Assembly: GCF_000235505.1 (NCBI RefSeq)
Contig: NZ_JH379029.1
Span: 571,798 to 635,797, forward strand
Reading direction: 5' to 3'
Source of the DNA: Hungatella hathewayi WAL-18680
GTDB taxonomy: Bacteria; Bacillota; Clostridia; Lachnospirales; Lachnospiraceae
Length of the DNA: 64,000 nt
The position numbers and the translations under genes were made by a program. The first letter of the stretch is position 1; the number at the start of each line of letters is the position of its first letter. Shown here in pieces: positions 12,216 to 24,115 of the stretch. Below the pieces are notes generated by a model that did no database searches, was not told the origin of the DNA, and saw only the letters and a program-made list of their open reading frames with translations.

Positions 12216-12944
12216 ATGAAGATAGAACGTATCAATGACAACCAGATTCGCTGTACTCTCACAAGTTTTGATTTAAGTGTACGCAACTTAAATCTGGGCG
12301 AGCTGGCTTACGGAAGTGAGAAGGCCCGCAGTCTTTTTCGCGAGATGATTCAGAAAGCATCCAACGAAGTGGGATTTGAAGCCGAGGATATTCCTCTCAT
12401 GGTAGAAGCCATTCCGTTATCCAATGAGAGCGTGATGCTGGTGATTACCAAGATAGAAGACCCAGAGGAACTGGATACCAGATTTGCAAGATTTTCACCG
12501 ATGTCAGAGGAGGACTCCGATTCCCTCTCCGACCTGGCCAGCGAACTGCTGGAAGGGGCGGACGGACTTTTGAACCTTCTAAGCGGCAATACCCTGTCCG
12601 TATCGGAGGATTTGGAATCTCCGGACAAGAAGACGGAAGCATCGCGGACATCCTCCATCCGTGTCTATACCTTTGAGAGTCTGGACCGCATTTCAGAGGC
12701 CGCCAGAGCGGTTGGAGGTCTCTATCAGGGACAGAATACCTTATATAAAAAGCCGGGAACCTTCCGCTATTTTCTGGTATTGACAGACGACGGTTCCGAT
12801 TCCCTTGATTTCAGCCGGGTATGCAATATCCTGGCGGAATACGGTACGAAGATACATCACGAGTACTCCAGTGAATCCTACTACCAGGAGCATTATGAGG
12901 TGGTTGCCAGAAATCGTGCACTTCAGATTATGGCCGGCATCTAA
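12216..12944 (+). CDS. mecA: Adaptor protein MecA
   Basis: 242 aa. The N-terminal MKIERINDNQIRCTLTSFDLSVRNLNLGELAYGSEKARSLFREM pattern is the substrate-binding domain of MecA; an acidic/serine-rich linker (about 95-140, SEEDSDSLSDLA) leads to a C-terminal domain (about 147-242) that in the family docks on ClpC and delivers proteins for ClpCP proteolysis. The length is near the B. subtilis protein. The ribosome site AAAGGAAG lies 7-8 bases upstream. The gene is divergent from the kinase cluster, with 286 bases of AT-rich spacer holding both promoters, and ends at a hairpin shared with the convergent DUF1858 gene. Confidence 0.9.
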   Translation: MKIERINDNQIRCTLTSFDLSVRNLNLGELAYGSEKARSLFREMIQKASNEVGFEAEDIPLMVEAIPLSNESVMLVITKIEDPEELDTRFARFSPMSEEDSDSLSDLASELLEGADGLLNLLSGNTLSVSEDLESPDKKTEASRTSSIRVYTFESLDRISEAARAVGGLYQGQNTLYKKPGTFRYFLVLTDDGSDSLDFSRVCNILAEYGTKIHHEYSSESYYQEHYEVVARNRALQIMAGI

Positions 12945-13007: not shown

Positions 13008-13208
13008 CTATCTGTCCGCAAGAATCTCATTCATTTTGGATACCAAGTCATCACAGTCGATTCCGTGAACGAAGCATGCCTCCTCCAGAGACTCACCCTG
13101 AGCGGAAGGACATCCGAGACAGTGCATGCCGGCAGCCATCAACATCTGAGGAATCAAATCGTCCATACCAATCATCTGGCCGATTAACATATCTTTACTT
13201 ATCTGCAT
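13008..13208 (-). CDS. DUF1858 domain protein (small CxxC redox-type protein)
   Basis: 66 aa, the full length of the DUF1858 fold. It starts MQISKDMLIGQMIGM and holds C30-x2-C33 in GMHCLGCPSA, the conserved cysteine pair of this family, which also occurs fused to hybrid-cluster and NAD(P)H-dependent redox proteins. The role is unproven; a thiol or metal redox switch is the usual suggestion. AAGGAGG stands 10 bases before the ATG. The gene is alone on its strand and convergent with mecA, upstream of and divergent from the pyruvate formate-lyase block. Confidence 0.85.
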   Translation of the reverse strand: MQISKDMLIGQMIGMDDLIPQMLMAAGMHCLGCPSAQGESLEEACFVHGIDCDDLVSKMNEILADR

Positions 13209-13537: not shown

Positions 13538-15592
13538 ATGTTAAAGAAAGAATGGGCTGGATTTACCCCCGGCGTCTGGGAAAGAGAGATTAACGTTCGG
13601 GATTTTATCCAGAAAAATTATACCCCATACGATGGTGATGACGCATTTTTAGCAGGACCGACTCAGAACACCAAGGATTTATGGGACCAGGTTATGGATT
13701 TATCAAGACAGGAGAGAGAAGCCGGCGGCGTCCTGGATATGGACACGAAGATTATCTCCACCATCACATCCCACGGACCTGGATATTTAGATAAAGAAAA
13801 AGAGACCATCGTCGGTTTTCAGACGGACAAGCCGTTCAAGCGTTCTCTTCAGCCATATGGCGGTATCCGCATGGCGGAGAAAGCCTGCTCGGACAACGGC
13901 TACACCGTGGACCCGGAAATCAGTGAATTCTTCACCGTACACAGAAAGACCCACAACGCAGGCGTTTTCGACGCTTACACACCGGAGATGCGGGCCTGCC
14001 GTTCCAGTCACATTATCACCGGACTTCCGGATGCTTACGGCCGTGGACGTATCATCGGCGACTACCGCAGAATTGCTCTGTACGGGATTGACCGGCTGAT
14101 TGAGGATAAGGAGGAGCAGAAGGCGACGACACGTACCATCATGTACTCCGACGTTATCCGCGACAGGGAGGAGCTGTCCGAGCAGATTCGCGCGCTGAAG
14201 GATTTGAAGAAGCTGGGCGAAATCTATGGCTACGACATTTCCAGACCGGCCAATGACGTGAGAGAGGCCATCCAGTGGACCTACTTCGGTTATCTGGCGG
14301 CTGTGAAGGAGCAGAACGGAGCTGCCATGTCCCTGGGGCGTACTTCTACATTTATTGATATCTATGCGGAGAGAGATTTGGCCGCCGGCACTTACACCGA
14401 GGAACAGATTCAGGAGTTTGTGGACCATTTCATCATGAAGCTCCGTCTCGTGAAATTTGCGAGAACTCCGGAATACAACGAGCTGTTCTCCGGCGACCCT
14501 ACCTGGGTGACCGAGTCCATCGGCGGCGTGGGAATCGACGGACGCCACATGGTGACCAAGATGTCCTACCGCTACCTGCACACGTTAAAGAACTTAGGAA
14601 CCGCTCCGGAGCCGAACTTAACCGTCCTCTGGTCCACCCGTCTTCCACAGAACTTCAAACGGTTCTGCGCCAAGACCTCCATCGAGTCCTCCTCCATCCA
14701 GTATGAGAATGATGACCTGATGCGTGTGACCCACGGTGACGACTACGCCATCGCCTGCTGCGTTTCCTCCATGAGACTGGGCAAGGAGATGCAGTTCTTC
14801 GGCGCCCGCGCCAACCTGGCAAAATGCCTCCTGTACGCTATCAACGGCGGCGTGGATGAGGTGTCCAAGAAGCAGGTTGGACCGAAATACCGTCCTATCA
14901 CCTCCGAGTATCTGGATTACGACGAGGTCATGGACGCTTACAAGGATATGATGAGATGGCTGGCCCGCGTGTATGTCAACGCACTGAACATCATCCATTA
15001 CATGCATGACAAATACTGCTACGAGAAAGTACAGATGGCCCTTCACGACAAGAAGGTCACCCGCTGGTTTGCAACCGGTATCGCCGGTCTCTCCGTTGTG
15101 GCCGACTCCTTGTCCGCCATCAAGTACGCGAAAGTAAAAACCATCCGTGATGAAAATGGAATCGTGGTGGACTACGAAGTGGAAGGCGATTTCCCGAAAT
15201 ACGGCAACAACGATGACCGTGTTGACCAGATTGCAAGCGATTTGGTGCACACCTTCATGAACTGCATCAAGGGGAACCACACCTACCGCGGCGGTATTCC
15301 AACAACCTCCATCTTGACAATCACCTCCAATGTCGTTTATGGTAAAGCTACCGGCTCCACTCCTGACGGAAGAAAAGCCGGAGAGCCATTCGCACCGGGC
15401 GCCAACCCGATGCACAGGCGTGATTCCCACGGCGCTGTCGCTTCTCTTGCCTCAGTGGCCAAGCTGCCATTCAAGGATGCACAGGACGGTATCTCCAATA
15501 CCTTCTCCATCATCCCCGGCGCCCTCGGCAAGGAGGACCAGATATTCGCCGGCGACCTGGAAGTGGAACTGAATCTGGATTCCGACAACTAA
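13538..15592 (+). CDS. Pyruvate formate-lyase core subunit lacking the glycyl-radical domain
   Basis: 684 aa against about 760 for the E. coli PflB. It has the ten-stranded barrel core of formate C-acetyltransferase: [12 protein letters not shown], the SRP-type stretch [26 protein letters not shown] and the catalytic pair C407-C408 in [20 protein letters not shown]. The sequence tracks PflB up to [18 protein letters not shown], then stops after a short acidic tail exactly where the glycyl-radical domain should begin; that domain is encoded 280 bases downstream as its own gene. ATG 13538 has AGGAGGT 5 bases upstream. The enzyme should convert pyruvate and CoA to acetyl-CoA and formate once the radical subunit is bound and activated. 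Not a frameshift: both small genes after it have their own ribosome sites. Confidence 0.9.
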
Positions 15593-15616: not shown

Positions 15617-15859
15617 ATGGATGACAAAAAAATAGATGATATTGTTTCCATGATTGACCAGTTCATGTCCCAAAATGGGGGCCATATGAACGTCATTGTG
15701 GATGATGACGGAACCGTCAACACCAAGGAAACATTTTCAAAAACAGTAACCCAGATGAATTCGCTGGACTGCGCCGCAGGTGATTTGGCCTGCGGGGTGC
15801 CCACTCTCTTTGAGGGACTGGACGCCGCAGATGACCCGGATTCAGACGTAGATGAGTAA
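15617..15859 (+). CDS. Small acidic protein resembling the start of a glycyl-radical domain but without the radical glycine
   Basis: 80 aa, AAAAGGAG 6 bases before the ATG, 24 bases after the lyase stop. Residues 5-28 ([20 protein letters not shown] plus NVIV) align with [20 protein letters not shown] plus NVNV of the next gene. After that the radical loop is replaced by a different segment with C51-x6-C58 ([12 protein letters not shown]) and a very acidic end ([12 protein letters not shown]). There is no RVSGY motif, so it cannot carry the radical. It may hold the empty site of the core subunit, help the activating enzyme reach the radical subunit, or bind metal or a disulfide partner. I do not recognise a named family. 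Confidence 0.85.
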
Positions 15860-15873
15860 GGAGGATTTCTATT

Positions 15874-16119
15874 ATGGCAAATGTAAGTGAAGCTCAAATT
15901 GATAACCTGGTATCTTTGCTGGATGGATACGCCGAGGAAGGCGGACATCATCTGAATGTCAACGTATTTTCTAAAGAAACGCTGCTGGACGCTCAGGCCC
16001 ATCCTGAGAACTATCCTCAGCTGACAGTCCGGGTATCCGGATATGCGGTGAACTTTATCAAGCTGACGAAGGCACAGCAGGATGAGGTTATCTCCCGCAC
16101 GTTCCACACCGATATCTAA
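15874..16119 (+). CDS. Separate glycyl-radical subunit of pyruvate formate-lyase
   Basis: 81 aa with AAGGAGG before the ATG. Residues 9-81 correspond to the C-terminal domain of PflB and to the spare-part protein GrcA (YfiD): [26 protein letters not shown], then [11 protein letters not shown] with the radical Gly56 and the ending [14 protein letters not shown]. In full-length PFL this segment is covalently attached; here it is made from its own gene 14 bases after the preceding one, with no other copy of the domain on the core protein. GrcA in E. coli is about 127 aa and only replaces a damaged domain, whereas this is short and is the only radical domain of its operon, so it must act as an obligatory subunit. 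Confidence 0.9.
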
Positions 16120-16223: not shown

Positions 16224-16982
16224 ATGTTGAAAGGTCATGTACATTCCATAGAAAGCTTCGGGACCGTGGACGGTCCCGGTATCCGCATGGTAGTCTTCTT
16301 AAAAGGCTGTCCCATGCGGTGCCTGTACTGCCACAACCCGGATACCTGGGAGATGGAGGGCGGCACCGACATGAGCGTGGAGGAGATTCTGCGTCAGTAT
16401 GAAGCCTCCAGGCATTTCTATACCAATGGCGGCATTACCGTTACCGGCGGGGAGCCCCTGATGCAGATAGACTTTGTCACCGAACTGTTCCAGACCGCCT
16501 CCCACCGGGGAATTCACACCTGCCTTGACACCTCAGGCATCACCTTTAACCCGGACAGTCCTGCTTCCATGGAGAAGATGGACAAGCTGATGACCGTCAC
16601 GGACCTGGTCATGCTGGATATCAAGCACATCAACCTGGAGGAGCACCGGAAGCTGACCGGCCAGTCCAACGAGCGCATCTTACAGTTTGCCCGCTATCTG
16701 GATGAGAAGCTGATTCCCGTCTGGATCCGCCACGTGGTGGTGCCGGGCATCACGGACAACCGGGATTACCTCTATCAGCTGGGAACCTTCATCGGCGGTC
16801 TTCACAACGTCAAAGCCCTGGATGTTCTGCCCTATCACGATATGGGAAAAATGAAATACGAAAACCTGGGGATCGACTACCCGCTGAACGACACACCGCC
16901 TCTCACCAAAGAGGAGGGAATCGAAGCACGAAAAGTCATATTAAGTGGTATCAGGGACAAGCGGTTAGGCAAAGCTAACTGA
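16224..16982 (+). CDS. pflA: Pyruvate formate-lyase activating enzyme (radical SAM)
   Basis: 252 aa, the usual length of PflA. The cluster motif is C29-x3-C33-x2-C36 (KGCPMRCLYCHNPDTW), followed by GGITVTGGEPLMQ (the GGE motif binding the SAM amino group) and the substrate-side HVVVPGITD. It uses SAM and an electron from ferredoxin or flavodoxin to abstract hydrogen from the radical glycine. It has only the core domain with no extra ferredoxin insert, typical of the PFL-AE branch. AAAGGAAGGG precedes the ATG. Its natural substrate here should be Gly56 of the separate 81-residue subunit rather than a domain on the core chain. Confidence 0.93.
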   Translation: MLKGHVHSIESFGTVDGPGIRMVVFLKGCPMRCLYCHNPDTWEMEGGTDMSVEEILRQYEASRHFYTNGGITVTGGEPLMQIDFVTELFQTASHRGIHTCLDTSGITFNPDSPASMEKMDKLMTVTDLVMLDIKHINLEEHRKLTGQSNERILQFARYLDEKLIPVWIRHVVVPGITDNRDYLYQLGTFIGGLHNVKALDVLPYHDMGKMKYENLGIDYPLNDTPPLTKEEGIEARKVILSGIRDKRLGKAN

Positions 16983-17087: not shown

Positions 17088-17258
17088 ATGGCATATGTAA
17101 TTTCTGACGCTTGTGTATCCTGTGGTACTTGCGAAGGCGAGTGTCCAGTTAACGCTATTTCTGAGGGAGAAGGCCAGTACGTTATCGACGCTGATACCTG
17201 CATTTCCTGCGGAACCTGTGCAGGCGCATGCCCAACAGGCGCAATCTCTGAGGAATAA
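17088..17258 (+). CDS. 2[4Fe-4S] bacterial ferredoxin
   Basis: 56 aa, clostridial ferredoxin size. Two C-x2-C-x2-C-x3-C-P motifs are visible: CVSCGTCEGECP (residues 9-20) and CISCGTCAGACP (38-49). ATAAGGAGG is 7 bases upstream. The acidic composition and two clusters fit a low-potential electron carrier; in this spot it could reduce the activating enzyme, although clostridial ferredoxins also serve pyruvate:ferredoxin oxidoreductase and hydrogenase. It is followed at once by a hairpin, so it is monocistronic or the last gene after pflA. Confidence 0.95.
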   Translation: MAYVISDACVSCGTCEGECPVNAISEGEGQYVIDADTCISCGTCAGACPTGAISEE

Positions 17259-18157: not shown

Positions 18158-18907
18158 TTACCACCATTTAATCAAATCCGTAACCTGGTTTCTCAAGTTT
18201 ACAAACGCCTCGGATGCGATATCCCTGGGCCTTGGCAAATCATTCATGATTTCTTTTTTAATCTTCGTGGGCTTGTTGGTGAGCACCAGTATCCGCTCTC
18301 CCAAGTACACCGCCTCCTCAATATTGTGGGTGATGAAAATCACCGTGGTCCCATTGCGTTTCCACAAATTTAACAGTTCATCCTCCAGCTTGAACCGCAG
18401 CTCGATATCCAGCTGCCCGTAAGGCTCGTCCATCAAAAGCAGCTCCGGCTCCGTGGCGAAGGCCCTGGCAATCACCACTCTCTGAAGCATGCTGGCCGAA
18501 AGCTGGTCCGGATAATAATTGCGGTACTTCGTCAATCCCACGATATCCAGATACTCATTCACTTTCTTATCGGTAATGTCCTTGTCCGTATGCTTAATCT
18601 CAAGCCCGAACCTGACATTTTCCTCCACCGTCAGCCACGGCATAGTGGAGTACTCCTGAAATATATAGGCAACACTGTGTTTGTTCAAGTCCACCGGCTC
18701 GTTGTTAATCAGAATCTCCCCCGCCGTCGGCTTGTACAGCTTTGTGAGACTGTTTAAAAATGTGGTCTTGCCACAGCCGGTAGGCCCCACAATACACAGG
18801 AACTCTCCCTTTTTTACATCAAAGGATATATCGTCCAACACCAGAAGGTCGTCAAATTTTTTGGTCAGATTCATAACCTTTACTTTTGTCTCTCTGTTTT
18901 CTCCCAT
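18158..18907 (-). CDS. ABC transporter ATPase, sulfonate/nitrate type, with an altered signature motif
   Basis: 249 aa. Walker A is GPTGCGKTT, the Q-loop is FQEYSTMPWLTV, Walker B is LLLMDEPYGQLD and the switch is THN. The signature that is normally LSGGQQQR reads LSASMLQR, so the two glycines that contact ATP of the partner are replaced. It is the second of two ATPase genes in the operon, and the other has a normal signature, so the pair may form a heterodimer with one degenerate site. AAGGAGG lies 5 bases before ATG 18907. Family members energise uptake of sulfonates, nitrate or related small anions. Confidence 0.85.
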   Translation of the reverse strand: MGENRETKVKVMNLTKKFDDLLVLDDISFDVKKGEFLCIVGPTGCGKTTFLNSLTKLYKPTAGEILINNEPVDLNKHSVAYIFQEYSTMPWLTVEENVRFGLEIKHTDKDITDKKVNEYLDIVGLTKYRNYYPDQLSASMLQRVVIARAFATEPELLLMDEPYGQLDIELRFKLEDELLNLWKRNGTTVIFITHNIEEAVYLGERILVLTNKPTKIKKEIMNDLPRPRDIASEAFVNLRNQVTDLIKWW

Positions 18908-18917
18908 GACATCCTCC

Positions 18918-19673
18918 TTATAGCGATTTATCCATATTTTCCGTAATCTCCTGGCGCAGGCGGAGGAATTCGGCATCCACATAGCTTCTGGGATGGGGCA
19001 AATCAATCACATACTCTTTCTTGATGACAGAAGGACAATTCGTCATCAGGATAATGCGGTCCGCCAAAAACAGCGCCTCCTCAATATTGTTGGTGACAAA
19101 CACCACCGTCCGCTTTTCTTTCTGCCAGATTCTCTGCAGTTCATCCTCCATCATGTATCTCGTCTGCGCGTCCAGATGGCCAAATGGCTCATCCATCAGC
19201 AGGATATCCGGGTTGTTGCTGTACGCTCTGGCAATCCCCACTCTCTGGCGCATCCCGCCGGATAACTGGGATGGAAAGCTCTTCTCAAACCCTTTTAACC
19301 CCACCAGCTCAATATAGTGGTCCGCCGTCTTCTTTCTCTCTTCCCTGCTCTTCCCACAAACCTTCGGGCCAAACTCCACATTTCCCATCACGGTCAGCCA
19401 TGGAAACAGCGCCGTCTTCTGGTAGACGACTCCCCGCTCCGGCGATGGCGCCGTCACCGTCTTGTCATGGTCAATAACTTCCCCTGTGGTCGGCATTTCC
19501 AGCCCAGCCAGGATGTTGAGCAGTGTCGTCTTTCCGCACTGTCCCGGCCCAAACAGTACCAGGAATTCATTTTTATGTACCTTGAAGTTGATATCTCCCA
19601 AAACCTGATGCTTCCCTGAGCCGTCAAAACTGTCATACTCTTTGGATACGTGATTGCACTGAAGCACGTCCAT
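18918..19673 (-). CDS. ABC transporter ATPase, SsuB/TauB/NrtD type
   Basis: 251 aa. Walker A is GPGQCGKTT, the Q-loop is YQKTALFPWLTV, the signature is LSGGMRQRV, Walker B is LLMDEPFGHLD, and the switch position reads TNN instead of THN (VTNNIEEAL), so the H-loop histidine is missing. With the next gene it supplies the two ATPases for an uptake system. ATG 19673 shares one base with the stop of the upstream permease (TGATG), which fixes the start. Confidence 0.87.
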   Translation of the reverse strand: MDVLQCNHVSKEYDSFDGSGKHQVLGDINFKVHKNEFLVLFGPGQCGKTTLLNILAGLEMPTTGEVIDHDKTVTAPSPERGVVYQKTALFPWLTVMGNVEFGPKVCGKSREERKKTADHYIELVGLKGFEKSFPSQLSGGMRQRVGIARAYSNNPDILLMDEPFGHLDAQTRYMMEDELQRIWQKEKRTVVFVTNNIEEALFLADRIILMTNCPSVIKKEYVIDLPHPRSYVDAEFLRLRQEITENMDKSL

Positions 19674-20470
19674 CACAGTCCCTGCTGCTGATTCCATATG
19701 CACAACCTCCCCTCCAGTTTTGCCATCGCTGTGGCCAGCACATATCCGACAATGCCGATTGCCAGCATGCCCACCATAATCTGAACCGTGTTACCGTTTG
19801 TCATTCCCATGACAATCAGCCAGCCTACGCCCTCATCGGAGCGCACCATCTCCGCGCCAACCACGGCCGACCAGCCGGCGGTGATGGCAATCTGAAGTCC
19901 CGCAAAGATATAGGGAACCGATGACGGCAGCACCACCCGGAAGAACACCTGACGCTCCGACGCCCCAAGCATTCTGGCTGCTCCTAAAAGCACCGGGTCC
20001 ACGTTCTTCGTCCCGTCATAGGTATTTACCGTTATAAAACAGAAGCAGCCCAGGAAAATGATGAAGAATTTACTCTGGTCTCCAAGCCCAAACCACAGGA
20101 TAGACATGGGAATCCAGGCCAGCGGCGGGATAGGCCGGATAAATTCAAAGATTGGTTTTATAATCGCTTCCACCGTCTTTGAGTACCCCATGGACACGCC
20201 CAGCGCAATCCCCGTCAACGTAGCTATGATAAATGCAACTCCCACCCGGTACAGACTCACGCCGATATGCACCGGCATAGTATATTTGCCAATCGGCACC
20301 GTAAAGCTGCTGATAAATTTCGTAATGATTTCCGATGCAGGCGGAAGAAACATTCCGGCTTTGGTAAAGCGGGATACCAGCTCCCATACAATCAAAAGGG
20401 ACGCAAATGCCACGACTGTCATGAATGCCGCCATGTGTTTCCGCATAAAACGCTCTGCCTTACTCTCCAT
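19673..20470 (-). CDS. ABC transporter permease, SsuC/TauC type
   Basis: 265 aa with about six membrane segments. The cytoplasmic coupling loop is MLGASERQVFFRVVLPSSVPYIFAGL, the EAA-type motif of BPD importers of sulfonate, nitrate or thiamine-precursor type. Its start is 1 base after the other permease gene and its stop overlaps the ATPase gene, so translation is tightly coupled. Confidence 0.88.
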   Translation of the reverse strand: MESKAERFMRKHMAAFMTVVAFASLLIVWELVSRFTKAGMFLPPASEIITKFISSFTVPIGKYTMPVHIGVSLYRVGVAFIIATLTGIALGVSMGYSKTVEAIIKPIFEFIRPIPPLAWIPMSILWFGLGDQSKFFIIFLGCFCFITVNTYDGTKNVDPVLLGAARMLGASERQVFFRVVLPSSVPYIFAGLQIAITAGWSAVVGAEMVRSDEGVGWLIVMGMTNGNTVQIMVGMLAIGIVGYVLATAMAKLEGRLCIWNQQQGL

Positions 20471-20471
20471 G

Positions 20472-21257
20472 TTAACGTCCCCCCTTCACATATTTGTTCT
20501 GAAGCTTTTCAAGAATTGCTGACAACAGATACCCAATCACTCCGATGGTAATCATACCAACCAGAATCACATCCGGCCGTCCAAGCATTCTGGCAACCTG
20601 AATCATGTAGCCTAACCCTCTGGTGGCCGCCAGCAGCTCCGCCGCCACAAGAGCCACCCAGGAGGACCCCAGCGCCAGCCGCAGTCCCGTAAATATCATG
20701 GGAAGGGCGGTAGGTATCGCGACTTTAAAAAGCATCTGCCGGTTGGACGCCCCGAAGGTCCTCGCCACCCACAGATGAACCTGTGTGGTCCGCTTAATCC
20801 CCGTATAGGAATTGATGGTGGCGCTGATGAAGGCCGCAAAGAAGATGATGCCCACCTTGGACCAGTAGCCGATTCCCAGCCACAGAATCATCAGCGGAAT
20901 CCAGGCCAGCGCCGGGATAGGCCGTATCACGTCAAACAACGGTTTCGCAAACATTTCAAACTTTCTGTTCCATGCCATGGCAATCCCTAAGGGGACACCA
21001 ATCACCACACCCACGATGTAGCCTCCAAGAGCTATCTTCATACTGGCCGCTATATGCTGGAGAAGGGTCGCTCCATCCGGATTGACCCCTCCTGTCAGTT
21101 TGTAGATAAATGTGTGAAACACCTTGGCCGGACTTGGAAGCATCATGGGAGATATCAGATGCAAAATATCTGTTGCCATTTCCCAGATAAACAGTACTGC
21201 CACAACAGAGCATACGGATATCAGGCGATATTTATACTTTGCAATTATCTCTTTCAT
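20472..21257 (-). CDS. ABC transporter permease, SsuC/TauC type (second copy)
   Basis: 261 aa, six predicted membrane segments and the coupling motif TFGASNRQMLFKVAIPTALPMIFTGL. It is clearly related to the neighbouring permease, so the channel is probably a heterodimer, in line with the two different ATPases. The gene starts 17 bases after the binding-protein gene. Confidence 0.88.
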   Translation of the reverse strand: MKEIIAKYKYRLISVCSVVAVLFIWEMATDILHLISPMMLPSPAKVFHTFIYKLTGGVNPDGATLLQHIAASMKIALGGYIVGVVIGVPLGIAMAWNRKFEMFAKPLFDVIRPIPALAWIPLMILWLGIGYWSKVGIIFFAAFISATINSYTGIKRTTQVHLWVARTFGASNRQMLFKVAIPTALPMIFTGLRLALGSSWVALVAAELLAATRGLGYMIQVARMLGRPDVILVGMITIGVIGYLLSAILEKLQNKYVKGGR

Positions 21258-21274
21258 CTGCCTGTCCTCCCCGG

Positions 21275-22372
21275 TTAATTTCCGCTTTTCACAAAATCAG
21301 ATACAATGTTGCTGTTGAATTTGTCAATCAACTCCGGTTCCAGCTGTCCAAGGCTGATGTAGAACTCACCCAGTTCTCTTGCAAAATTGCCCACTTCACG
21401 GTCCTTCCAGTCCTCCGCCGTGATAAAGCGCACTCTGCCCAAATCACTGACACAGCTCTCTCTGCTGGCCTCCGCGCCGGCATCCTTTAAAAAGTCCACC
21501 ATAAGGTCGGCCGCCATATCCGGGTCATCATTGAGGGCCTTGCATGCTTCCTTCACACAGTCGATGTACTTCTGCACCAGCTCCTGCTTGCCTTCCACTG
21601 CCTTCCTGTTCGCCACTACCATGTCCACATATCTGGTGCCCAAATCAGCCAGGTTGCCTACCTGTACCATACCGTCATCCACCGCCTCAAAAAACGTTGG
21701 AACATTCAATGCAACCGCGTCACACTGGTTGGCCTGAAGCGCCTGATAGGCCTGGGCCGTATCCATATTTACAATGTTGACGTCCGTAATGCCAAGTCCC
21801 AGCTTCTCCAGCCATTTTAACGTGGTAAAATGCTGTGCCGTTCCGATAGGCAGAAGAATCGTCGCGCCTTTTACGGTCTCCGGGTCGCCCAGCACATTGG
21901 GATAGGACGGATTATAGCCCTTTGCCTGGGCAATAGGAGAATCTGGTTTTACAAAAACGCCAAGTCCGTCCGTGGACTCCAGAACCTCGCCGATAATCAT
22001 CATATCGTAGTTTGCCACGCCAGTCACGGCCGCCGCTCCCATGGCTCCTACATCCCACAAATCGGCTGCCAGTGCTTCATTCATAGGCGCCCCCGTGGCA
22101 AACATGATGGTGTCCATCTTGAAGCCCGCCTTCTCATCCAGCTTGTTTTTCCTGATATATTCCGTAGGAAGACTTGTGATAAATGGCATCATGGCGACTC
22201 TCAGTGTTGGCAAATCTGCTGTGCCGGCATCTCCTCCTGCCGCCTCCGTTTTGGCGTCCTGTCCCTGTCCGGCGGTGCTCTGTGATGACGTTCCTGATGC
22301 CCCGCAGCCGGTTAACGCAAGCGCCAGACCGACTGCCGCCACTCTTTTTAATGCCTTCATTCCCTTTTTCAT
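21275..22372 (-). CDS. Lipoprotein substrate-binding protein of an NMT1/SsuA-type ABC importer
   Basis: 365 aa. Signal peptide with lipobox ALALTGC (lipidated C23), then a Ser/Gly/Ala linker and a two-lobed binding fold starting LPTLRVAMMPFITSLPTEYI. GATILLPIGTAQHFTTLKWLEKLGL and GQLEPELIDKF are typical of the sulfonate/nitrate/taurine group. The ligand cannot be read from sequence, but the adjacent sulfatase genes suggest a sulfated or sulfonated small molecule. ATG 22372 is fixed by GGAGGAG; an in-frame start 21 bases upstream has none. Confidence 0.85.
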   Translation of the reverse strand: MKKGMKALKRVAAVGLALALTGCGASGTSSQSTAGQGQDAKTEAAGGDAGTADLPTLRVAMMPFITSLPTEYIRKNKLDEKAGFKMDTIMFATGAPMNEALAADLWDVGAMGAAAVTGVANYDMMIIGEVLESTDGLGVFVKPDSPIAQAKGYNPSYPNVLGDPETVKGATILLPIGTAQHFTTLKWLEKLGLGITDVNIVNMDTAQAYQALQANQCDAVALNVPTFFEAVDDGMVQVGNLADLGTRYVDMVVANRKAVEGKQELVQKYIDCVKEACKALNDDPDMAADLMVDFLKDAGAEASRESCVSDLGRVRFITAEDWKDREVGNFARELGEFYISLGQLEPELIDKFNSNIVSDFVKSGN

Positions 22373-22600
22373 GTTGACTCCTCCTCTTCTCATTGCCTCT
22401 TCTCATTGTCATGTTCCAGGAAAACACAAAAACGTTTGACTTGCCGCAACCAACTCCGAACTTCCCGTGTTTTCCTTTTATGAGTTGATTATAAAGCAGC
22501 AAAGGAATCAATATTTTTCTGATATTTTACTTTTCTTTTGCTTTTTACAACAATTTAACATCTATTTGATTTCTGGCTTTCACTTATCTGACATTTGTTT
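22373..22600 (-). promoter_or_regulatory. Leader and promoter region of the ABC importer operon
   Basis: A TATAAT -10 box (minus strand, 22488-22493) lacks a -35, as expected of an activator-dependent promoter. Downstream, a perfect 9-base inverted repeat GGAAAACAC / GTGTTTTCC (22419-22427 with 22467-22475) encloses a 20-base element (22430-22449) that recurs upstream of the sulfatase operon. Confidence 0.5.
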
Positions 22601-24115
22601 TTATATTTTGACATCCCCGTCCTGAAAGCCGTACCGGATCAGCAGCTCCTCCGGACATTCGTTCTCTATCATCCGGGACTTCATCAGCACTTCCATCCGC
22701 ATTCTGGCCTTCTCATCCTGACATGGCCGTTCCTGGCATGGGTCCTGCTCTAAGTCAAACAGCATGGTCTCATACTCCGCCTGGGCTGGCAACTGTCTGC
22801 AGGGAATCTTCATAAGCGGCAGCCCTTTTGTGAAAGAAAATCCCTCTGCCAGCGTCATTTCCCCCAATTCCTCCGGCGGGATAAATGCCCGGCGGCCGCC
22901 GTGGCGGGTGGGCATCAGCGTATACTGATAAATCTCCTGCTCCCGGCAGACCGGACTCTTCATATAGACATAGCGCCCGTCCGTACAGTTCATCTGTCCG
23001 CCAAAAATGCCAAAAAGAGCCGCTTCCCTGACCGGCTTATCCTCCTTTATGACTCCCTGAAGCGGAATTCCCTCCATATGCTCCGGCCGTTCGATATCAA
23101 ACTGCTTCAATATGGTGGCGGGCAGATCGATGGTCTGCACCAGACTCTTCACATGTTTTCCCCTCTCCTGGCTCACCGGGTCCCAGATAAACAGCGGGAT
23201 TCTCGCCACCTCATTGTAGAAGGGGCAGTGGCATTTGGCCCACTGTCCATGCTCCGAGAGCAGAAAGCCGTGGTCCGTGTTGACTATCAGCATGGTGTCC
23301 TTCCACATATCATACCTGTCCATCAAATCCAGAATCTCACCCAGCTTTTCGTCGCACATGGCCAGCAGAGCCGCATATTCGCAGCGCAGATGGCGGATGA
23401 TTTCCGGGGTATCCTTATCGTCCACCTTTCGGTAATCCGGCCAGTCATAGATTGCCCCCTCGTAGTGGTGGGGCATTAGCTTCTGAAACCGTTCCTGGGA
23501 AAAAAACGGCTCATGGGGGTCAAAGGTCTCTATCTGGAGAAACCACTGGTCCGCTTCATGATTCGTCTCGATAAATTCCTTTCCCGCGTCAAAGGTCTGG
23601 CTCTGGGGCTGTAAACGTTCCTCCCCCATATACGTCCGGTTTATCAAATCCTGGGGCACCCAGTTGTGTTCCCAGCTGTCGTCCACGCCATCACAGCGGT
23701 TTTCATAGGCGGGAAGCTGCTCTCTGTAATTCACAACGCCCTTCCACGCATCCCCCTCCTGTCCCCGGAATCCCTCCCAGGTTCTGTATCTGGTATGATA
23801 GGTCGCCCCACCATCCTCAAAGTAGTGATAGTGGTCGGTGGCCAGATGGGAGTGGATGCCGTGATGATTCAGGATTTCCGGCATGGAATCATCGAAGGGC
23901 TCCAGCGGCCCCCAGCTTCTGTGCATAAAATTATAACGGCCGGTGTGCAGCTCCCGCCTGGCCGGCATGCAGGGCAGACTCCCCGCATAACAGTTGTCAA
24001 ACGTCACCGACCGCTCTGCCAGTCTGTTAAAATTCGGAGTTGCCGCCAGCCCTCCCCCGTAAGGCTCCAGCATGTTCCGATTCAATGAATCATACATTAC
24101 CATAATGACTCTCAT
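22601..24115 (-). CDS. Cysteine-type sulfatase (alkaline-phosphatase superfamily)
   Basis: 504 aa. The formylglycine motif C-x-P-x-R is C49-MPAR in SLPCMPARRELHTGR, so C49 must be oxidised to formylglycine, in anaerobes usually by a radical SAM maturase (none is seen in this window). Metal-binding MVMYDSLNRN and NTDHGFLLSEHGQW also match. There is no signal peptide, so it acts in the cytoplasm on imported sulfate esters. ATG 24115 has GGAGAGGGG upstream and begins right after the response regulator stop. It is the last gene of the sulfatase/two-component operon. Confidence 0.9.
   Translation of the reverse strand: MRVIMVMYDSLNRNMLEPYGGGLAATPNFNRLAERSVTFDNCYAGSLPCMPARRELHTGRYNFMHRSWGPLEPFDDSMPEILNHHGIHSHLATDHYHYFEDGGATYHTRYRTWEGFRGQEGDAWKGVVNYREQLPAYENRCDGVDDSWEHNWVPQDLINRTYMGEERLQPQSQTFDAGKEFIETNHEADQWFLQIETFDPHEPFFSQERFQKLMPHHYEGAIYDWPDYRKVDDKDTPEIIRHLRCEYAALLAMCDEKLGEILDLMDRYDMWKDTMLIVNTDHGFLLSEHGQWAKCHCPFYNEVARIPLFIWDPVSQERGKHVKSLVQTIDLPATILKQFDIERPEHMEGIPLQGVIKEDKPVREAALFGIFGGQMNCTDGRYVYMKSPVCREQEIYQYTLMPTRHGGRRAFIPPEELGEMTLAEGFSFTKGLPLMKIPCRQLPAQAEYETMLFDLEQDPCQERPCQDEKARMRMEVLMKSRMIENECPEELLIRYGFQDGDVKI

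Follow-up and report, generated by a model that had tools for sequence, protein, structure and literature searches.

A conserved cysteine-pair protein of split PFL operons in Lachnospiraceae, a candidate trans-acting dithiol arm

Described systems and the split PFL locus

Many gut anaerobes make their formate mainly with pyruvate formate-lyase (PFL), an enzyme whose use is limited by its sensitivity to oxygen. In other glycyl radical enzymes, Fe-S clusters occur on small accessory subunits; those of benzylsuccinate synthase and 4-hydroxyphenylacetate decarboxylase are cysteine-bearing partners encoded beside the enzyme. In E. coli PFL, residues 696-733, which contain the strand matched by the protein described here, decide YfiD binding and activation (PMC8683613). 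In ribonucleotide reductase (RNR), a C-terminal cysteine pair enters the active site to reduce it; in class II enzymes the pair is carried either by a fused domain (NrdJd) or by a separate subunit, NrdJb (PMC5704485). The solved chains closest to the PFL core of our locus are 38lb_A (739 aa) and 38la_A (687 aa), both named 'formate acetyltransferase'; a glycyl domain was looked for in these two chains and found in neither. Chain 38lb_A extends past the core end and carries CDMC at 694-697, a cis-type tail, whereas the PFL studied here has the trans form; 38la_A stops just before the tail position. Tailed and tail-less split PFLs have therefore already been made by others, whose conclusions may overlap with ours. 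The open-access papers searched contained no text on split PFL, GrcA3 or the small protein analysed below, and nobody seems to have described a mobile cysteine arm of split PFL.

The locus lies in a 64,000-nucleotide stretch of Hungatella hathewayi WAL-18680 (the window), which contains a PFL-family core without glycyl radical domain, a stand-alone glycyl radical subunit, GrcA3, and a PFL activase (Table 1). The core aligned to positions 2-665 of 744 of the TIGR01255 model, so the glycyl radical domain is absent; the catalytic CC is present in all 117 PFL cores checked. The operon runs core, a gene for 80 amino acids, GrcA3, activase, the small gene lying between core and radical genes as the initial annotation had placed it. 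This open reading frame starts with ATG, has AAGGAG upstream and is a real and conserved gene. Stop-codon read-through from the core into it was considered and rejected, since the frame relation between the two differs among relatives.

The redox-disulfide gene is divergent from pfl, and a similar gene occurs in 27 of 54 long loci; its product is a possible redox partner of the arm proposed below, judged by position only. The small ferredoxin encoded after the activase, with a similar gene in 35 of the 54 long loci, is a candidate electron donor of the activase. Farther out in the window, a gene for a MecA-type adaptor (12216-12944) precedes the operon and is kept in a near-syntenic relative (L127). 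ABC transporter genes on the reverse strand (18158-24115) include one for a binding protein of the sulfonate or NMT1 type and adjoin a sulfatase-like gene.

Table 1. Features of the split PFL operon and its neighbours, in window coordinates
Feature	Position	Strand	Evidence or remark
Hybrid-cluster-protein-associated redox disulfide domain protein (DUF1858)	13008..13208	-	TIGR03980, 80.4 bits (cut-off 44.95)
PFL core, 684 aa, ends before glycyl radical domain	13538..15592	+	PF02901, E 6e-225
Active-site C407-C408 of PFL core	14756-14761	+	
Core C-terminal extension, 19 residues, no cysteine	15533..15589	+	Place of the Cys-pair tail in gene-less relatives
80-aa third component, candidate trans-acting dithiol arm of split PFL	15617..15859	+	ORF, conservation
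Putative docking half, residues 1-33: helix and GGHMNV strand	15617..15715	+	GrcA3-start homology
Dithiol motif C52-x6-C59-x-VPTL-x-x-G-x-D, residues 52-69	15770..15823	+	Invariance in alignment
C52 codon	15770-15772	+	
C59 codon	15791-15793	+	
GrcA3, stand-alone glycyl radical subunit, 81 aa, RVSGYA	15874..16119	+	NF038360, 165.7 bits (cut-off 158)
PFL activase (radical SAM)	16224..16982	+	TIGR02493, 299 bits (cut-off 231.75)
Small 2x[4Fe-4S] ferredoxin	17088..17258	+	NF058577, 93 bits (cut-off 65)

Sequence and conservation of the 80-residue protein

The initial annotation, made from the letters alone, had noticed that the protein shares its start with the radical subunit, and profile comparison bore this out. 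The N-terminal helix and GGHxxN strand of GrcA3 are present in residues 1-33 (family profile against GrcA3 residues 1-36: hhalign probability 95%, E 2.4e-8, 36 columns), and NF038360 was matched by all but one of 49 family members (48), the best at E 5e-8; the window's protein itself scores 18.9 bits over residues 2-31 only, below the cut-off of 158 bits. By way of the GrcA3-start alignment, this half corresponds to about residues 680-708 of E. coli PFL. Past the GGHMNV strand the two products of the same operon diverge: unlike members of the GrcA/YfiD group, including GrcA3 (NF038360), the 80-residue protein has neither the radical glycine loop nor the C-terminal helix, and has a cysteine pair and an acidic tail instead. 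The RVSGYA loop is found in none of the 81 family members, and their last 15 residues have a mean net charge of -4.1, so that the annotated lack of a radical glycine and the acidic end both hold. The annotated CX6C motif also stands, with its numbering corrected by one from C51 and C58 to C52 and C59.

When 49 diverse members are aligned, G22, H23, N25, C52, C59, P62 and G67 prove invariant, which gives the family the invariant cysteine pair near a flexible C-terminus that characterizes an RNR-type arm. The pair is spaced by six residues in 74 of 81 members, and about half of the members have a third cysteine in the form GC[TI]DC-x6-C. No Pfam or NCBIfam family covers the protein and no cut-off was passed; a search of solved structures with the family profile returned nothing under E 0.2. 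Modelled alone with AlphaFold2, the protein is mostly unstructured apart from a helix at residues 4-18, at low confidence (pTM 0.29).

A single scan with one genome per species retrieved at least 432 loci encoding a relative, a number far beyond chance, and the best 80 of these were read. Nearly all of the 80 come from Lachnospiraceae and other Clostridia, and the cysteine pair is complete in every one, in line with the conservation across relatives that had been named as a check. Wherever the contig reaches, the order in these best relatives is PFL core, 80-residue gene, GrcA3. Plasmids were also searched and none was found. Shortened homologues were seen in L169 (3264-3452) and L170 (2378-2617; reverse-complement coordinates), ending directly after a CxxC (GCTDCAK and GCTTCSQ, respectively), without the AC-x-VPTL part.

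We then considered the family at the level of genera, using 299 Lachnospiraceae genomes, one per genus and partly metagenome bins. Stand-alone GrcA3 was found in 113 of them and the 80-residue gene in 78, a count that includes one genome (G130) in which the motif actually sits on the tail of the core itself. GrcA3 accompanies the gene in 77 of the 78 (Fisher p = 4e-42), and the two are adjacent in 73. For a weak match in G168, reading of the region found no 80-residue gene there. Together with the lack of a family model and of an open-access description, this co-occurrence agrees with the earlier suggestion of an undescribed third component tied to the split lyase.

The gene is not bound to one position. 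In G334 and G319 it lies far from pfl, with riboflavin or proline genes as neighbours, and the pfl operon of these genomes consists of core, activase and GrcA3, the core having no cysteine pair; in G482, from another family, the order is core, GrcA3, 80-residue gene. Since orphan copies exist and the order in G482 differs, the protein appears able to act in trans from no fixed place. Orphan copies were read between ribE-like and proB genes (L118, 5952-6173), near proBA (L120, 5904-6122), before a moxR-like ATPase gene (L121, 5896-6198) and adjoining a cheC-like gene (L119, 5149-5388). Some genomes that already have a split PFL operon were also seen to encode further stand-alone GrcA3 proteins away from any PFL gene (L132, 2698-2970; L135, 4014-4262; L136, 3894-4229; L137, 2613-2894); these copies look like true spare parts.

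Distribution of the cysteine pair between gene and core tail

In split PFL loci without the gene, the core itself ends in a C-terminal tail with an equivalent cysteine pair, which often lies within the shared motif C-x(n)-AC-x-[VI]P[TN]-[LI] and is followed by an acidic end. Nearly all gene-less cores of the family have such an end, for example DRLEAECGNMACNIPNIEESIDRE (L165), DSMDGCGDMACKVPTLHKGIDDDDNN (L138) or ELEPDCACCEPNATLDEE (L146), and the near-syntenic relative (G209, L127) bears the cis tail ECGVDSACAIPNL. The spacing of the tail cysteines ranges from 0 to 6 residues, and some cis tails comprise just CxC, CC or DCACCEP, the PTL part being missing. Tail cysteines were counted after the ALGK anchor of the core over all split loci read; 36 genomes have a split PFL and no 80-residue gene, and their cores were read for all but one. 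Where the gene is present, tail cysteines occur in 0 of 80 cores (about 15 expected by chance); where it is absent, two or more occur in 35 of 38 (about 2 expected by chance), a mutual exclusion of gene and tail (Fisher p = 7e-27). As for the three leftover loci of the gene-absent class, one (L085) does have the gene, another (L171) comes from G334, where the gene is elsewhere in the genome, and L164 (G325) has neither form. Neither was found in five of about 130 split loci, namely G325 within the family and G485 (a genome 82% complete), G584, G684 and G522 outside it.

A quick maximum-likelihood tree of 86 PFL cores, with the tails left out, requires at least nine switches between tail and gene, and well-supported branches force at least six changes of gene label. 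Gain of one form accompanies lack of the other in all five independent well-supported pairs, with no contrary case; on well-supported branches alone a sign test has these five usable pairs and gives p = 0.0625. Outside the Lachnospiraceae but within the class, 16 split loci were read after the pattern was seen; nine had the tail, three the gene and four neither, so that the gene-or-tail rule holds there in 12 of 16 and is weaker than within the family.

Fused PFLs of the same family have a linker without cysteine in 15 of 16 cases, and six fused enzymes form one clade nested within the split enzymes in a fast tree. If that placement is right, the module would have been dropped when the radical domain rejoined the core, which we offer as a lead only, the tree having been fast. 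The exceptional fused enzyme (L166, 700-3021; 774 aa) has three linker cysteines before the glycyl domain (TCGCEEVTC) and may have arisen when a split enzyme with a tail was fused again.

These patterns make it very probable that the 80-residue protein is functionally equivalent to the cysteine-pair tail of sister split PFL cores. The split PFL of gut-type Clostridia nearly always has a short two-cysteine tail, on the core or on a separate protein. Function in the 80-residue protein seems to centre on the cysteines and not on its GrcA-like half, because gene-less split enzymes keep the cysteine pair alone, as a core tail.

Possible action of the arm

The 80-residue protein is best read as a detachable arm, consisting of a GrcA-derived docking half and a dithiol tail that is covalent in sister enzymes. 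It would be the trans form of an arm that split PFL needs, the glycyl domain being unattached, and the docking half would substitute for the covalent link to the core. We infer from sequence that the protein binds the core, and the GrcA-derived half probably docks at or near the edge used by the matching GrcA3 strand. Structure prediction, which had been named as a check, was uninformative on this docking: AlphaFold2, given core and 80-residue protein in frame as one chain with the stop read as a residue, returned a mean pLDDT of 62.8 from a shallow alignment, mostly below 40 in the 80-residue part, and fold searches with this model recovered PFL for the core part only.

What the arm does can be proposed more tentatively. 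When GrcA3 is away, its flexible acidic tail may carry the two thiols to the open active site, where they would keep or make C407-C408 reduced, or quench a stranded radical, as the cysteine pair of class I RNR serves its site; a cellular reductant would recharge the arm. Tail equivalence, docking and active-site dithiol service, taken jointly, are put forward with the same reserve. Its most likely mode of action on the open core would be that of the C-terminal cysteine arm of RNR, a view we draw from the RNR analogue and from the match of the docking half to the YfiD-binding part of E. coli PFL. What RNR (the class I tail and NrdJb) and split PFL share is a flexible C-terminal cysteine pair, attached or separate, on a ten-stranded-barrel radical enzyme, and we take the short PFL arm and tails to resemble those of RNR; the likeness is put forward as an analogy, and PFL has no net redox step. 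Against the redox role, PFL, unlike RNR, makes no disulfide per turnover, so that re-reduction of the arm would be occasional. We are more hesitant still about the general proposition that PFL has evolved a mobile dithiol arm of the RNR kind, which goes with the split state, can be either a covalent tail or a separate GrcA-derived carrier, and guards or recharges the catalytic cysteines while the radical subunit is off. On sequence evidence the arm may reduce, quench or cap.

Capping is what a plug or chaperone would do: tail or gene product would shield the open barrel while GrcA3 is away, and the cysteine pair would sit close to the active site as a cap, in the form of a disulfide or mixed disulfide, with no electron delivery. 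This would suit a docking half that copies the start of the glycyl domain, the lack of the module in most fused PFLs and the proteolysis-prone state of cleaved E. coli PFL (PMC8683613). A plain plug would have no need of two cysteines, however, yet these survive all the switches even as length, spacing and flanks change, and we consider it unlikely. The GrcA-like half might instead recruit GrcA3 or the activase, with the cysteines secondary; residues 696-733 of cleaved PFL are required for YfiD binding and for a 32-fold better activation (PMC8683613), and the docking half is homologous to the strand within them. Against such a recognition element, cis tails without the strand still replace the gene and the common feature is the cysteine pair, which makes it improbable. 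That gene-less cores keep just this pair also argues against two roles in the initial annotation, a pure decoy occupying the radical site and a protein that does no more than guide the radical subunit to the activase.

The redox or metal switch suggested at the same time survives, and its redox part fits better because a tail cysteine spacing of 0 to 6 would hardly be allowed by a fixed metal site. In the metal reading, Zn or an Fe-S cluster would be bound by the two cysteines, either by themselves or together with C407-C408 or a partner, and would act as a switch or a store. The CxC and CxxC forms, the third cysteine in about half of the members and the Fe-S clusters of small subunits in other glycyl radical enzymes speak for it, but only two cysteines are invariant, and the family taken as a whole has no match among ferredoxin or zinc families. 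The clusters of the benzylsuccinate synthase and 4-hydroxyphenylacetate decarboxylase subunits have more ligands, and the BssB/C and HpdC type of ligand set is absent from the 80-residue family, with no shared family match; we give a metal site little likelihood. Finally, homology to the first third of GrcA3 and the adjacent position might suggest a decayed GrcA3 duplicate under weak constraint. This reading is hardly credible and already refuted by conservation, as a new invariant motif absent from GrcA3 is kept in 80 of 80 relatives and exclusion with the core tail is strict.

PFL is split in about a third of the sampled genera of Lachnospiraceae, nearly all with the module in one of two interchangeable forms. 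The analysis provides names and a guess at function for hundreds of unannotated small genes and for the odd C-termini of many PFL records. Enzymes with the tail, enzymes with the gene and fused PFLs are ready-made natural experiments on what a split radical enzyme needs and a fused one does not, and the nearly constant presence of the two-cysteine tail, on the core or on a separate protein, points to a mobile cysteine arm as a probable need of the split enzyme.
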